From NCBI GenBank assembly GCA_030429445.1, contig JAUIFG010000010.1, positions 1-39,449 of the forward strand: a DNA stretch of 39,449 bases, read 5' to 3'. The position numbers and the translations under genes were made by a program. Within the stretch, counting starts at the first letter, position 1, and each line of letters opens with the position of its first letter. This document shows, piece by piece, positions 1,613 through 12,272 of the stretch. A model generated the notes under the pieces. It did not search any database and was not told where the DNA came from. It saw only the letters and a program-made list of their open reading frames with translations. This DNA is from a bacterium (GTDB lineage: Bacteria > Patescibacteriota > Saccharimonadia > Saccharimonadales > Saccharimonadaceae).

Positions 1613-2644
1613 ATGGAGAATCTACCAATCAACAATGATAATACCCAAGACGAAAAAGCCAAGAAAAAATTGGCATACTGCAAAAATGTAGACAACCTCG
1701 AGAAAGCATCTGTCTACGGCAAACACTACCATCCCGTACCCGATGGTTCACGATTTCATCCACGCTCTGATATCGACTGGGGCAACCCCGAATATGAAAT
1801 GATTGAAAACGATGAGCGCTGGATCCTTCCGTCAAACATCCCCATTGGCAACCATGAATGGTATCAATCACAATCCACTGATGAACAAATACGGATCGGC
1901 AAACTCTACATTTCAAACGTTATCCTTACCGGCGCACAGTTCGAAAACCTCCTCATCAAAGGTATCTTGACAGAGAATATGGAAAAATCAGTATCAGACC
2001 CAGACAGTATTTATCCTTTGCTCGAAGCTGGCGAAGAAGTAAATCATAAGATAATGTTTCGAGAACTCATACGTCATATGGGTGTCGAAACAAAGGGCGC
2101 ACCTGCATGGTTCCGTCGCTTCGTCCCGCTACTCGCTACAACTATACCGAATAAAATACCTGCTGGCTTTTGGACATTTGTATATGCAGGCGAAGAACCA
2201 ATCGATCAGCTCCAAAAAACGCTACGCGACCAAGGAGCAAACCTACATCCACTTTTGACAACTGTTATGGACATTCATATTGCCGAAGAAGCTCGCCACA
2301 TCACTTATGCGAAAAAACGACAAGAGAAATACCTTGAACCTGGTTCAATGAACACCCTACAGCGTATGGGCTACAAGGCCCTATTTCCCGTTATGATGCG
2401 AGTTGCCGCGAATGTTATTTTACGCCCCAGCAGGGAGGTCCTAAAGGAGATGGGGATACCCAAAGAAGTATCGAAAGAAATGTTCTGGGACTCACAAAGT
2501 GGTAAGGAATCTCTTAGCAACCTATTTCCCGATACCCGAAAGTTTGCCGACAAAAACAAATTACGCGAAGGCAAGATTTTCAACTTTATTTGGAAACGCT
2601 TGGGCCTCAACGAAAACTTGCCTGTCGACACTGATATATCTTAA
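1613..2644 (+). CDS. AurF-like diiron oxygenase
   Basis: The 343-residue protein carries the ligand set of the diiron family of p-aminobenzoate N-oxygenase AurF: E111, E142-x-x-H145, E194/E195, and H222-x3-E226-x2-H229. The spacing resembles AurF (E-ExxH-E-HxxxExxH). Members oxidise amines or related substrates with O2 in the cytoplasm, and many act in specialised metabolism. Here no biosynthetic genes are adjacent, so the substrate is unknown; it could also be a fatty-acyl or detoxifying oxygenase. The N-terminal 90 residues are polar and lineage-specific. ATG 1613 lies 12 nt after AAGGA. An O2-using diiron enzyme is unusual for a reduced, mainly fermentative lineage and suggests acquisition. 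Confidence 0.75.
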   Translation: MENLPINNDNTQDEKAKKKLAYCKNVDNLEKASVYGKHYHPVPDGSRFHPRSDIDWGNPEYEMIENDERWILPSNIPIGNHEWYQSQSTDEQIRIGKLYISNVILTGAQFENLLIKGILTENMEKSVSDPDSIYPLLEAGEEVNHKIMFRELIRHMGVETKGAPAWFRRFVPLLATTIPNKIPAGFWTFVYAGEEPIDQLQKTLRDQGANLHPLLTTVMDIHIAEEARHITYAKKRQEKYLEPGSMNTLQRMGYKALFPVMMRVAANVILRPSREVLKEMGIPKEVSKEMFWDSQSGKESLSNLFPDTRKFADKNKLREGKIFNFIWKRLGLNENLPVDTDIS

Positions 2645-4217: not shown

Positions 4218-5558
4218 CTACTCTTCGCTCCCGCTGTTACTGCTGGAGCTGGAATCCGAATCCGAATCAGAGTCGCTATTAGAAGATGAATTGTCATCAC
4301 CCGAGTCGCTAGCCTGGCTATCTGATTCGGATGATGATTCACCAAAGCGTTGCTTTGGCTCCTCATTATCATCCTCGTCGTCAGCTTTGATATCAACATC
4401 GATATCGATATCTTCAGCGACATCTTCATTATCCAGCACGGATTCTTCCTCGTCGTCAGTTATCGCATCTGTTGATGACTGACCCTCGGTTTCTTCTTGC
4501 TGAACATCGGGTTCCGGGATCTCCGTCTCGACAACGTCATCCTGATCGTAACCATACACTGGCTCCAATCCTTCAGACTGCTCAACTGAATCTTCCTTTT
4601 CCGGAGTTGAGATAACTGACTGAACCTGTTGCTCTACAAAATCATCTTCAGACGATTCATTCGGTTCGTCCATCGCAATTGTTGCCCGCGCACTCGGAGC
4701 GTCCTGCTGAGGTGCTTCTTCCACCTGTACTTCTACGGGTGAGGCCTGCACCTCATACATTGACCGATCATATGCCCGATTAATACTTGCCCTGAATGGA
4801 CCCTCTAGTGCATCAGCGATGAAACCAAGACCGATGTTCCGCCAGCCCTGAAGAATCGGTAGATTCTCTGTAGGAACAAGGATGTAGGTCGTCTGGCCAT
4901 CCTGATAGATCAGATTATCATAGCTATTGACATCTACATCCCCGTAACCTAACCGGTGGGCAAGTGCGAGTCCGGAAAATGCATTGGCGATTGCCAATAT
5001 ATTGAACGGATTATTCGGGAAATCCGAGAACAAATCGTACTCCACCGAAATATTCGTAGTTGGATACGGATTTTCAAAGTTATTTATCTTGAAAATCCCA
5101 TTCAAACCATGTTGCGGATTACCGATGAGCACGTAGGATTCTGGCACTACCGCTTCGGGCATTCTGCCTTCAGCTCGTGCAATCATCAACTCGGTCGCAA
5201 CGCTCGCGCCCTGGCTAAAGCCAAAGACGACAACGGGCTCTGTAGCCTGCTGCAAGTCTGCGTTGAGCGCTTGCACACCTTTCGGTGCTGACGAGGGTGA
5301 AAGTGAGGCCGGATAGTTCACTGCCCTGCAGACAAACTCTCCTTTACACATTTCACCCCGAAGTGCCATTTGCACCGGAGTACTTTGGACGAAAGGAATG
5401 CGAGTTCCCTCAAGGGTGAGTACCTCCGTTGCCGGAACAACATCGTGGCTCGCAGTGGACACCGGCGTGACCTCTGGAACCGAAAGCGGAACAACTGCGA
5501 CAAGCGCTAGCGCCAAGGCCGCAGGAAGCATTCTCCCAGCAATCTGAAGAGACCTCAT
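4218..5558 (-). CDS. secreted PE-PPE-domain serine hydrolase with acidic tail
   Basis: Residues 1-36 form a signal peptide. Residues about 48-268 match the PE-PPE domain, an alpha/beta hydrolase best known from mycobacterial PE/PPE proteins: an N-terminal GT-x-IP, nucleophile elbow GFSQG (S115), VLIGNPQHGLNGIF, the typical EYDxFxDFPxxPFNxLAxANAxxGLALAH block (Asp175/Asp179 and His201 are triad candidates) and VPTENLPIL. Mycobacterial members are esterases acting on acyl chains and, in some cases, trehalose mycolate precursors. Residues 270-446 are a low-complexity tail of Asp, Glu and Ser ending in an SD repeat, probably disordered. A hairpin lies in its 5' UTR. The catalytic domain is secure; action on host lipids is inference, and transfer from an actinobacterium is likely. 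Confidence 0.88.
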   Translation of the reverse strand: MRSLQIAGRMLPAALALALVAVVPLSVPEVTPVSTASHDVVPATEVLTLEGTRIPFVQSTPVQMALRGEMCKGEFVCRAVNYPASLSPSSAPKGVQALNADLQQATEPVVVFGFSQGASVATELMIARAEGRMPEAVVPESYVLIGNPQHGLNGIFKINNFENPYPTTNISVEYDLFSDFPNNPFNILAIANAFSGLALAHRLGYGDVDVNSYDNLIYQDGQTTYILVPTENLPILQGWRNIGLGFIADALEGPFRASINRAYDRSMYEVQASPVEVQVEEAPQQDAPSARATIAMDEPNESSEDDFVEQQVQSVISTPEKEDSVEQSEGLEPVYGYDQDDVVETEIPEPDVQQEETEGQSSTDAITDDEEESVLDNEDVAEDIDIDVDIKADDEDDNEEPKQRFGESSSESDSQASDSGDDNSSSNSDSDSDSDSSSSSNSGSEE

Positions 5559-6230: not shown

Positions 6231-7442
6231 ATGACATTCTCTTTGGAATTACCCGAAGAAGTGGTTACCATTCGCGATTGGGTTCACGAGTTCTCCACCA
6301 AGGTGATACGTCCAGTGGCCGCCGAGTGGGACGAACGCGAAGAGACACCGTGGCCCTTGATTCAAGAGGCTGCAAAGATAGGCCTATACACACCCGAACT
6401 GTTCGCTCAAATGTTCTTTGAACAGAGCGGGCTTGGTATGCCAGCGATTTATGAGGAACTGTTCTGGGGCGATGCCGGAATCGGTCTCGCTATCATGGGG
6501 ACTGGCCTCGCTGCAGCAGCACTTGCCGCAAACGGCACGGGCGAACAGCTCGGTGAGTGGCTATTCCCGATGTTCGGCACACCTGACAATCCGCGCCTCG
6601 GCGCGTTTTGCTCATCCGAACCGGGCGCAGGCTCTGATGTCGGCGCAGTGCGCACCCGTGCACAATACGACGAGTCGTCTGACGAATGGGTCATCAATGG
6701 CGTCAAGACATGGGCTACTAACGGAGGCATTGCCGACGTCCACATTGTAGGCGCGTCAGTGTATCCAGATTTGGGCACTCGTGGTCAGGCAATGTTCATC
6801 GTGCCACCAAACACCCCAGGTCTGTCACAGGGACAAAAGTTCAAAAAGCATGGAATCCGTGCGTCACACACCGCAGAAGTGGTGCTCGACAACGTGCGGC
6901 TGCCTAGCACTCTCATCCTCGGTGGAATGGAGAAATTTGAGGAACGAATCGCACGAGTCCGCGAGGGCAAACACGCATCAGGGCAAGCTGCAATGGCAAC
7001 CTTTGAACGTACCCGCCCCATAGTAGGTGCAATGGCACTCGGTGTTGCACGCGCAGCTTACGAGTACGCACTGGAATACGCCGGTCAACGCGAGCAATTT
7101 GGTCGCAAGATTGGTGATTTCCAAGCCATCGCTTTTAAACTCGCCGATATGAAAATGCGCATCGATGCATCACGCTTGCTCGTATGGCGAGCTTCGTGGA
7201 TGCAACGTAACAACGTAAAGTTCACATCCGCAGAAGGTTCGATGGCAAAATTGTACGCCAGCGAAACTGCAGTACATGTCACCGATGAGGCTATTCAAAT
7301 ACTTGGAGGTAATGGCTATACAAGAGATTATCCTGTCGAGCGCTGGCACCGCGACGCCAAGATCTTTACGATCTTTGAAGGCACGAGTGAAATCCAGCGA
7401 CTGGTCATCGGACGAACTCTCACTGGATTGCCGATTCGCTAA
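6231..7442 (+). CDS. acyl-CoA dehydrogenase (orphan)
   Basis: This full-length 403-residue FAD enzyme has the N-terminal helical domain, the FAD/substrate motif SEPGAGSD (about 129-136), the VKTWATNG strand, the second signature [22 protein letters not shown], and the catalytic Glu383 in FEGTSEIQR. The family introduces a trans-2,3 double bond into acyl-CoA and passes electrons to ETF. No ETF, hydratase, thiolase or acyl-CoA ligase gene is present in the window, and Saccharibacteria generally lack beta-oxidation. The coding sequence is visibly richer in G+C than its neighbours (for example 6541-6720), which suggests recent transfer. CAGGAGC supplies an SD 5 nt before the ATG, and a strong terminator follows. 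The enzyme class is certain, the substrate is not. Confidence 0.95.
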
Positions 7443-7543: not shown

Positions 7544-8158
7544 CTACTCGGTATAGTCCAATGCGATATAACAATAGTGACGATTTGGATCAGTGCCCGT
7601 ACCGCCTACCATGCCCGATGGACAAGTTGTATAGGCAGGATAGAGGCTATACAAACGAACATCAGTTGCACTGTAATATCGCAAGAAAGGCCCAACAACG
7701 TTAACTTGACTGTACTTGGCAGAATTAGTTGGCGGAGTGCCAACTGTCGAAAGCTGATTGAGGAGATAGGTGCCTGTTGATTCGGCAGCTTGATATGGGG
7801 GATTGGTGGTCGCATAGCAATAGGGGTTGCCGCTATACGTTGGGAAACCCGTACCCAGACAATACACATTCAATGCATTCGCACCAGGCCCACCACTCGT
7901 TGTAAGGTTAGATGCTGCCGGTGCAGGGTAGCTACCGTTAGTTGCTCTGTAGACTTCAAAGAGTTTGTGCCAAGCCTTTAGTTCACTGGTAATTGCAGAT
8001 ACTTGGGCTCGTTGTTGGATGCCTGTATAGGCAACCGTGACGATGGCTGCCAAAATACCAATCACGACCACGACTATCAACAATTCAACGATAGTAAAGC
8101 CCCTTGATGATGAGTCATGTTTGTTTTGTTTTGATAGTTTCAAGAGATGCCCAATCAT
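7544..8158 (-). CDS. type IV prepilin-like protein (copy 2)
   Basis: The 204-residue paralogue of the prepilin at 881-1504 has the same processing motif (RGFTIVELLIVVVVIGILAAIV) and a nearly identical first 70 mature residues, plus the same four cysteines and final LDYTE. The central loops differ (for example VYCLGTGFPTYSGNPYC against RYCLGTGFPQASGSGYC). The shared N-terminal helix lets both enter one filament, while the divergent head could vary surface properties. The gene is alone, with a promoter matching that of copy 1 in architecture. It may be a major and minor pilin pair or a gene pair under diversifying selection. Confidence 0.9.
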   Translation of the reverse strand: MIGHLLKLSKQNKHDSSSRGFTIVELLIVVVVIGILAAIVTVAYTGIQQRAQVSAITSELKAWHKLFEVYRATNGSYPAPAASNLTTSGGPGANALNVYCLGTGFPTYSGNPYCYATTNPPYQAAESTGTYLLNQLSTVGTPPTNSAKYSQVNVVGPFLRYYSATDVRLYSLYPAYTTCPSGMVGGTGTDPNRHYCYIALDYTE

Positions 8159-10515: not shown

Positions 10516-11031
10516 ATGTCTGATTTACCAGAAAAACAAGTAAAAAGACTAACATCACTTATACAGGAAGCGGAAACAAACCTAGCAGCTGCCAAGGAGC
10601 TTCTAATTAGTATTATCGGAGATGATGGAGTTGCGATTACTCCAAAATCAGGCCAAGAAGACGTCACGGGCAAAGTTGTCGAGGGCGTATTTGACGGCCA
10701 AGTCATGATTGGACCTGATGGCAAAAATTACCCGGTACCAGCAAACTACGCCAGCAAATCAAAATTGCTAGAAGGTGATGTCCTGAAGTTGACCATTGCC
10801 GATGATGGTAGCTTTATTTACAAGCAGATTGGGCCAATTGAGCGCAAACAGGTTGTTGGCACCCTAGTCCAGCACGATGGTGCATACTACGTTGAAGCGG
10901 GCGGCAAGGAATATCGAATCCTCCTAGCGAGTGTCACTTTCTTTCATGTTAAAGAAGGTGATCAAGTCACCATTATCGTTCCGGTCGATAATCCAGATGC
11001 CACTTGGGCAGCAGTTGAAGCTCCCCTCTAG
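10516..11031 (+). CDS. conserved hypothetical protein with coiled coil and beta-barrel-like domain
   Basis: The 171-residue soluble protein starts with a helix (about 5-35) and continues with two regions rich in beta strands separated by Gly (VVEGVFDGQVMIGPDGKNYPVP, then LLEGDVLKLTIADDGSFIYKQI, then EGDQVTIIVPVDNPDATW). The repeated EGD-x-(V/L)-x-(L/I)-x-I pattern suggests OB- or TRAM-like small barrels, but I cannot name a family. ATG 10516 is chosen over an in-frame start 36 nt earlier because AAGGA precedes it and the strong promoter would begin transcription between them. It meets the metalloprotease gene tail to tail, with the stop codons overlapping by 4 nt. Confidence 0.75.
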   Translation: MSDLPEKQVKRLTSLIQEAETNLAAAKELLISIIGDDGVAITPKSGQEDVTGKVVEGVFDGQVMIGPDGKNYPVPANYASKSKLLEGDVLKLTIADDGSFIYKQIGPIERKQVVGTLVQHDGAYYVEAGGKEYRILLASVTFFHVKEGDQVTIIVPVDNPDATWAAVEAPL

Positions 11032-12272
11032 GATTCTTCTTGCTTCGAAATATCTGTATAGAGAATACCTCTGTCGGACTGATACTCTATCCTAACACTA
11101 TATGTATTGATTTTAATTGTCTGAGTTGAGCTTTCTTGGTTCGAAAAATGAATATATCCAAGAGATAATGTTGCTACATCATTGTCATTAACCAAAGAGA
11201 CATGGACTCTTGATTCTTTTTGCTCGAACAACAGCCTGTCGTAAAACATTTCTCGCACACCAAGCCCCTCCTGTCTGACTACTATTTTTAAGGGTTCGCT
11301 GAATTTAAGTGATGAAAAGTTCCTACTTTTATCAGAATTTGGTACGAGTGTCTCCTTCTGATCAATAGGATAATGAGTATCAGGTTTTAGCTTGAGCGCT
11401 CTTTCAGGCCATTGTAGATACCAGGCTTGATATGCATCTGGCTCAATCTGATTCGTATGTTGACCCATGAGATTGTTTTGCCCATCATATTCTCTGTATG
11501 CACCCAGCTTTATAGAGCTAATAATGCTTGATAAATCAATCACGCCATTATTATTGCTAGGAAGATTTTGGTATGACGAGTGCTCCAACTTACTCATATG
11601 TCCGAGTTTATAAAGATGGCCCGCTTCGTGCGCAATGACATCGGCAAGCGTATCCTTGTATTCATCTTTGGTCTCAAAATCTTTGGGCTTTACATCTTCG
11701 TGAACATCAAATACATCCGCGAAGTCACCCGAGGCAAGTCCGTGGCCACCCTGACATTGCTTTACATCCGTAACACTAACAACATAATTATAATCGCGAA
11801 GATTCATCTCGTCTTTGGCGATGAACGAACCAAGTTTTTCAATATCTTTACTGGCACACTCTGGATTAAGTTGATTAAACCTCTCATTTGCACTTTGCGA
11901 TGCCAGCATTGGCACCATCGTTACATCAACCAAACCACCAGTACCCCTTGCAAGAATACTATCCGCATCAGCCGATGCTATTGCTAGTTGATCCAGCGAC
12001 AGTCCATCACCATATCCAATAACGGCTATTTTTCCAAAACGATCAGAAATGCAGTCAAGGGCAAGGCCGAGCTCATCGCCTGCTGCTTTTTCGTTATTGC
12101 TAATATCACAAGAAGAAACTTTTTCACTATTATCTACGAGCGCCATAGACGCAAAAACCGTTACCAATAACGTACAATATGACCCGACCGCTCGAGCATA
12201 CATCGCCTTTTTTTCGGAGACAGAGTAGTGATTCGCAAATCTGGACATGCGTCCTTTTTGACGTTCCTGCAT
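11028..12272 (-). CDS. secreted or membrane-anchored zinc metalloprotease (metzincin-like)
   Basis: The 414-residue protein has an N-terminal hydrophobic segment (about 29-46) as signal or anchor. The zinc site is H215-E216-A-G-H219-L-Y-K-L-G-H225, and a downstream NLMG (Met269) fits the Met-turn. The canonical metzincin glycine three residues after the second His is Lys here, with Gly two positions later. Several cysteines in the pro-part (C55, C74, C139, C173) could form disulfides. Residues 300-414 look like an all-beta C-terminal domain. Secreted proteases of this type digest extracellular or host proteins. ATG 12272 follows TATAAT by 5 nt (leaderless); ATG 12248 with AAGGA is the alternative. 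Confidence 0.85.
   Translation of the reverse strand: MQERQKGRMSRFANHYSVSEKKAMYARAVGSYCTLLVTVFASMALVDNSEKVSSCDISNNEKAAGDELGLALDCISDRFGKIAVIGYGDGLSLDQLAIASADADSILARGTGGLVDVTMVPMLASQSANERFNQLNPECASKDIEKLGSFIAKDEMNLRDYNYVVSVTDVKQCQGGHGLASGDFADVFDVHEDVKPKDFETKDEYKDTLADVIAHEAGHLYKLGHMSKLEHSSYQNLPSNNNGVIDLSSIISSIKLGAYREYDGQNNLMGQHTNQIEPDAYQAWYLQWPERALKLKPDTHYPIDQKETLVPNSDKSRNFSSLKFSEPLKIVVRQEGLGVREMFYDRLLFEQKESRVHVSLVNDNDVATLSLGYIHFSNQESSTQTIKINTYSVRIEYQSDRGILYTDISKQEES

Follow-up and report, generated by a model that had tools for sequence, protein, structure and literature searches.

A gene on the minus strand of a saccharibacterial chromosome encodes what is, judged from its sequence, very probably a secreted serine esterase of the PE-PPE type; the enzyme family is a known one, but it was not expected in this lineage and setting. 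The best reading, which we hold with moderate confidence, is that it is the enzyme of an epibiont associated with mycolata (mycolic-acid bacteria) and hydrolyses acyl esters in the envelope of the host. The gene lies in a stretch of 39,449 nucleotides, referred to here as the window (G000:C2:1-39449), which belongs to a genome, G000, of 825 kb in 13 contigs and 97% complete.

The open reading frame occupies 4218..5558, exactly as originally predicted, and encodes 446 amino acids. It begins with an ATG at 5558, preceded by AGAAGG, and stops at 4218; no other start codon lies upstream of this ATG before an in-frame stop 60 bases upstream. The features of the gene given below are likewise on the minus strand. 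A putative signal peptide in residues 1-36 (5451..5558), ending at a presumed cleavage site, was placed with a hydropathy profile, in which residues 11-25 form a hydrophobic core of mean hydropathy 2.5. The PE-PPE domain match covers residues 89-264 (4767..5294; Pfam and the AlphaFold2 model). Against the Pfam profile PF08237 the protein scored 115.8 bits, with a cut-off of 21, and an E-value of 2.7e-33, and profile positions 28-228 were covered. In an hmmscan search of Pfam, PE-PPE was the sole match above cut-off and neither a PE nor a PPE N-terminal module was found; the Cutinase profile PF01083 gave 25.2 bits in that search and 27.1 in another, against a cut-off of 25.9. A sequence search against solved structures returned just low-complexity noise from the tail of the protein.

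The predicted catalytic residues can be equated with those of the mycobacterial esterase PE16/Rv1430, for which the triad is Ser199, Asp276 and His302 (PMC3037379) and Ser199 has been examined by mutation (PMC3562317). Ser115, equivalent to Ser199, lies in the GFSQG nucleophile elbow (residues 113-117, 5208..5222), and this serine is invariant in the three alignments A1, A2 and A3. Asp175 (5034..5036), equivalent to Asp276, lies within EYDLFSDFP (173-181) and is nearly invariant in A1 and invariant in A2 and A3, while His201 (4956..4958), equivalent to His302, ends the motif LAH (199-201) and is invariant in all three. An alignment of 18 relatives shows no variation at Ser115 or His201 and almost none at Asp175, and the distance of 26 residues between Asp175 and His201 equals that between Asp276 and His302 of Rv1430. 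The motif VPTENLPIL is present too. The putative signal peptide, the elbow and the EYDxFxDFP, LAH and VPTENLPIL block on which the original prediction was built were all recovered; the Pfam comparison that it proposed supports the family assignment, and the triad is intact.

Beyond the domain, residues 266-446 (4221..4763) form a C-terminal tail of 181 residues that is rich in Asp, Glu and Ser (34% D+E and 18% S). It contains neither an LPxTG motif nor a transmembrane stretch, and probably serves as a spacer, flexible and highly charged, or as a segment that interacts with a surface.

An AlphaFold2 model of residues 37-290, built from a 17-row alignment, has a pLDDT of 87.3 and a pTM of 0.83, and is an alpha/beta hydrolase. 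Its best structural neighbours in VIA-align include Rv3802c of M. tuberculosis (Z 12.8), MSMEG_6394 (Z 12.0) and LysB of phage D29 (3hc7; Z 11.9, rmsd 4.0 over 157 residues). Fungal acetyl xylan esterases and a cutinase-like enzyme reach Z values of up to 12.8 and are tied with the mycobacterial and phage neighbours, as rows no more than 1 Z apart count as tied. Foldseek by itself gave weaker matches, with the fungal ones leading. The model indicates a serine alpha/beta-hydrolase fold with cutinase-type neighbours at Z 12-13, and it says nothing on the substrate. The modelled fold and serine hydrolase chemistry would be common to the window protein, the mycolylarabinogalactan esterase LysB and the cutinase-like Rv3802c, but identity to the latter two in the structural alignment is only 17-20%, and the best Pfam match of the window protein is PF08237.

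In the window the gene is surrounded by typical chromosomal genes of saccharibacteria (dnaX, dnaB, cysS, tgt and ribosomal proteins). An orthologue with 71% identity occurs in a separately assembled Candidatus Saccharibacteria record, in conserved surroundings that include, in both, a DUF348 protein, AurF, an acyl-CoA dehydrogenase and pilin-like genes. Because of these neighbours and this orthologue, a chance reading frame, contamination and misbinning were ruled out. In the second record a further, shorter PE-PPE gene adjoins the orthologue, and G000 itself encodes a second PE-PPE protein on contig C9 (596 amino acids, E 4e-24), which also has an acidic tail.

Two of the conserved neighbours are possible functional partners of the esterase. 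An acyl-CoA dehydrogenase gene (6231..7442, plus strand; PF00441, E 7e-53) lies upstream of and divergent to it and is conserved next to the esterase at locus L025, and a gene for an AurF-like diiron oxygenase (1613..2644, plus strand; PF11583, E 1.6e-60) is conserved nearby at the same locus. Among 295 genomes of the order, the oxygenase was found in three (G000, G008 and G009), all of this genus; strong matches to the dehydrogenase occurred in the same three only, with weak ones (E about 2e-8) in two others. These three genomes also carry PE-PPE and GH183 genes. The GC content of the dehydrogenase gene is 54%, against 44% for the window, and such a gene is unusual in a cell in which a ketoacyl synthase was not detected. 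Elsewhere in the window, 11028-12272 (minus strand) encodes a putative secreted metallopeptidase with an HEAGHLYKLGH motif and a Reprolysin match below cut-off. Pseudopilin-like genes with an N-methylation motif are repeated around the esterase (881-1504 and 7544-8158, both on the minus strand, and L025:10428-13751); their C-terminal parts are divergent, and they are possibly a variable set of adhesins.

Matches to PF08237 are present in nine of ten species of the genus, with up to four in each. Surveys that covered 393 genomes at the level of the order and 380 across the phylum gave strong, near-full-length matches in this genus only. Elsewhere in the family, isolated genomes from other genera (L009, L027 and L039) have weak matches that extend over the domain, and about 80 genomes of other Saccharimonadales genera have weak matches, mostly to the first third of the profile, which are widespread in one genus, g2, of the same family. 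The g2 protein that was inspected (L010:304-1962) is a Cutinase domain fused to VWA and matches only the first ~70 profile positions, and for this reason weak matches of that kind were left out of the count of PE-PPE enzymes. Other large saccharibacterial proteins make up a second family, which combines a PE-PPE/cutinase-like part with a Pro/Ala-rich tail (L020, L022, L012, L026 and L029; also genera g54 and g75), and the same RNA-methyltransferase-like gene adjoins several of these loci.

Outside the Patescibacteria, relatives were sought with tblastn in collections of phages and plasmids, which hold no actinobacterial chromosomes and in which the phage records are biased to those of M. smegmatis. 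All 31 phage relatives are from mycobacteriophages, and the three plasmid relatives are all from mycolata (Mycolicibacterium, Mycobacterium and Tsukamurella). A second saccharibacterial PE-PPE member gave the same picture when used as the query. This agrees with the original prediction, in which the domain was described as found mainly in mycobacteria and related mycolic-acid bacteria. The best phage family match is phrog_9390 (residues 40-312, E 1.7e-25). Its members in phages Nibb, SirPhilip and Jolie2 resemble the window protein in having a signal-peptide-like start, a PE-PPE domain and a charged C-terminal tail, at about 25-36% identity, but they are encoded by phages, their tails are shorter and less acidic, and RefSeq names them 'DNA binding protein'. 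That name looks wrong for the PE-PPE-like phage proteins at L050, L051 and L053, which GenBank calls hydrolase, esterase or PE/PPE.

Trees of 36 and 32 domain rows were calculated with IQ-TREE, with sparse actinobacterial sampling. A long branch carries the window protein and its orthologue, which lie about 2.8 changes per site away from the closest mycolata row and within a set of 12 rows that contains other saccharibacterial copies and four viral ones (support 95/93). At least one viral lineage of this set has a mycobacteriophage relative. A single saccharibacterial clade is rejected by the AU test (p-AU 0.0124), with long branches as a caveat. The copies from saccharibacteria branch deeply, vary widely and are interspersed with those from mycolata and phages, and so no recent donor is visible. 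A recent transfer is likewise unsupported: the GC content of the gene (50%, against 44% for the window) is only modestly raised, and the branch is long. The suggestion that the bacterium took the gene from its host remains plausible, although on these rather sparse actinobacterial rows the tree shows neither a recent donor nor a short branch. The sequences are best described as one PE-PPE family common to mycolata, their phages and this genus, among which exchange would have been old or repeated, with phages as possible carriers.

The genome appears to encode D-arabinan-degrading enzymes in addition to the esterase. Two tandem genes of the DUF4185/GH183 family lie on another contig (G000:C10:29097-31293, also L088:6795-9309; E 1e-49 and 9e-54), and one of them appears to have a lipoprotein-type start (VGCG). 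DUF4185 corresponds to GH183, for which endo-D-arabinanase activity has been shown with mycobacterial and Dysgonomonas enzymes (PMC10115798). Phage relatives of the two genes were found in 23 records, from Gordonia, Rhodococcus and Mycobacterium phages and one labelled just 'Bacteriophage', with a best identity of 39.5% (Rhodococcus phage NiceHouse); plasmid relatives come from Rhodococcus, Tsukamurella and Nocardia, plus one from Tateyamaria. DUF4185 was above cut-off in three of five genomes of this genus, compared to four of 388 others in the sample of the order (Fisher p 3e-5), and is missing from some members of the genus that have PE-PPE. GH172 was found in four congeners and not in the G000 genome.

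The nearest described parallel is Candidatus Mycosynbacter amalyticus, a predatory saccharibacterial parasite of mycolata that carries GH183 and GH172 (PMC10115798) and for which 27 mycolata host species are cited (PMC12592800). Both bacteria are saccharibacteria whose enzymes include families directed at the envelope of mycolata, and GH183 is common to both. However, GH183 and GH172 cut arabinofuranoside, whereas PE-PPE would cut an acyl ester, and a genome that we infer to be that of M. amalyticus (G126) has one GH183, one GH172 frame of 628 amino acids and no PE-PPE match. The PE-PPE family is therefore not needed for parasitism of mycolata.

That the target of the esterase is the envelope of a mycolata host is, on the sequence data, likely. 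The two GH183-family genes in the same genome strengthen such a role, and the combination of a mycolata-type esterase with wall-sugar-cutting enzymes suggests a bacterium that feeds on or breaks into mycolic-acid bacteria. In the mechanism that we favour, a serine hydrolase of the PE-PPE/cutinase superfamily would be exported by the Sec pathway and would act extracellularly on acyl chains that are ester-linked in the envelope of an actinobacterial host with mycolic acids, with Ser115, His201 and Asp175 carrying out the hydrolysis, as the conserved triad and the fold model indicate. Candidate substrates would be trehalose mycolates, mycolyl-arabinogalactan and other acyl glycolipids. The GH183-family enzymes may cooperate by cutting the D-arabinan beneath the acyl layer, and the opened mycomembrane could then allow attachment, uptake of DNA or nutrients, or lysis. 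The proposal that the enzyme attacks mycolate or other envelope lipids is strengthened as to the host, but not as to mycolate, since PE16/Rv1430, a member that has been tested biochemically, hydrolyses C4-C8 esters with a preference for C6 and does not hydrolyse Tween-20 or cutin (PMC3562317). We regard the mycolate ester itself as a somewhat doubtful main substrate.

Released fatty acids might also supply the cell. No ketoacyl synthase was found in G000, while one was present in all 14 control genomes, from which it would follow that the acyl chains of the cell come from outside. This result bears on the idea that the protein is a Chp2-like acyltransferase, which would build acylated glycolipids on the surface of the epibiont itself, perhaps using lipids of the host. 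Chp2 of M. tuberculosis is reported to carry out transesterification of acyltrehaloses (PMC4183827), and the NCBIfam acyltransferase PE model NF041570 does match the esterase weakly (28.5 bits, E 7e-7), but the score is far under the equivalog cut-off of 580, and with no ketoacyl synthase found in its genome the cell would lack its own synthesis of fatty acids or polyketides as a source for this pathway. We consider the acyltransferase improbable. There was also no match in the G000 genome to PF00756, the antigen-85 mycolyltransferase family.

A broader possibility, which we think unlikely though less so than the acyltransferase, is a secreted esterase or lipase of general function, belonging to the cutinase superfamily, which would scavenge acyl esters of short to medium chain length or environmental polyesters and have no special tie to mycolata. 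The C6 preference of PE16/Rv1430 would fit such an enzyme, as would the presence among the fold matches of acetyl xylan esterases and fungal cutinases, which are unrelated to mycolates. Because another genus of the family abounds in weak matches of the cutinase-plus-VWA type, which occur in many other Saccharimonadales genomes too, an esterase of cutinase-type fold is by itself no pointer to mycolata. The sequence family, however, is confined in the collections searched to mycolata, their phages and this genus, and the genome also has GH183-family genes, which point towards the envelope of mycolata. The phage relatives raise the further idea of an entry or superinfection factor exchanged with phages of mycolata, with a phage-like role in opening or altering the host surface rather than in feeding. 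The match to phrog_9390 and the grouping of viral proteins near the window protein in the 12-row set agree with it, yet the gene sits among chromosomal housekeeping genes, those parts of the window that were read showed no sign of a prophage, the orthologue and its neighbourhood are kept in another species, and the chemistry overlaps with that of the envelope esterase. This explanation seems to us highly improbable.

Returning to the envelope esterase, the window protein agrees with the mycobacterial PE-PPE esterases (PE16/Rv1430) in its PF08237 domain, GxSxG elbow, Ser/Asp/His triad and Asp-His spacing. It differs from them in having no N-terminal PE or PPE module detected by Pfam, in its putative Sec-type signal peptide and long acidic Ser/Asp tail, and in coming from a bacterium whose genome yielded no ketoacyl synthase. 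The open-access literature that was searched contains no paper that joins PE-PPE with Saccharibacteria or Patescibacteria, and of the reports on M. amalyticus, which is said to parasitise many mycolata (PMC12592800), one names D-arabinan-degrading enzymes (PMC10115798), but no enzyme with which a saccharibacterium would attack the acyl layer is described in them. As a tentative proposal, held a little short of even confidence, this one genus may possess a set for dismantling the mycolata envelope, in which several secreted PE-PPE esterases would act on the acyl layer, GH183-family D-arabinanases on the arabinan, and the linked, genus-specific AurF-like oxygenase and acyl-CoA dehydrogenase would process the released lipid; more than one exchange with mycolata or their phages would have brought in the PE-PPE genes.

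For the question of how Patescibacteria breach the envelope of their hosts, a secreted PE-PPE esterase is a concrete candidate that can be assayed. The expansion of PE-PPE in one uncultured genus, together with the GH183-family genes, leads to a prediction of its host range. Activity on mycolate esters, if the enzyme has it, would also make it a tool from nature for use against mycomembranes.
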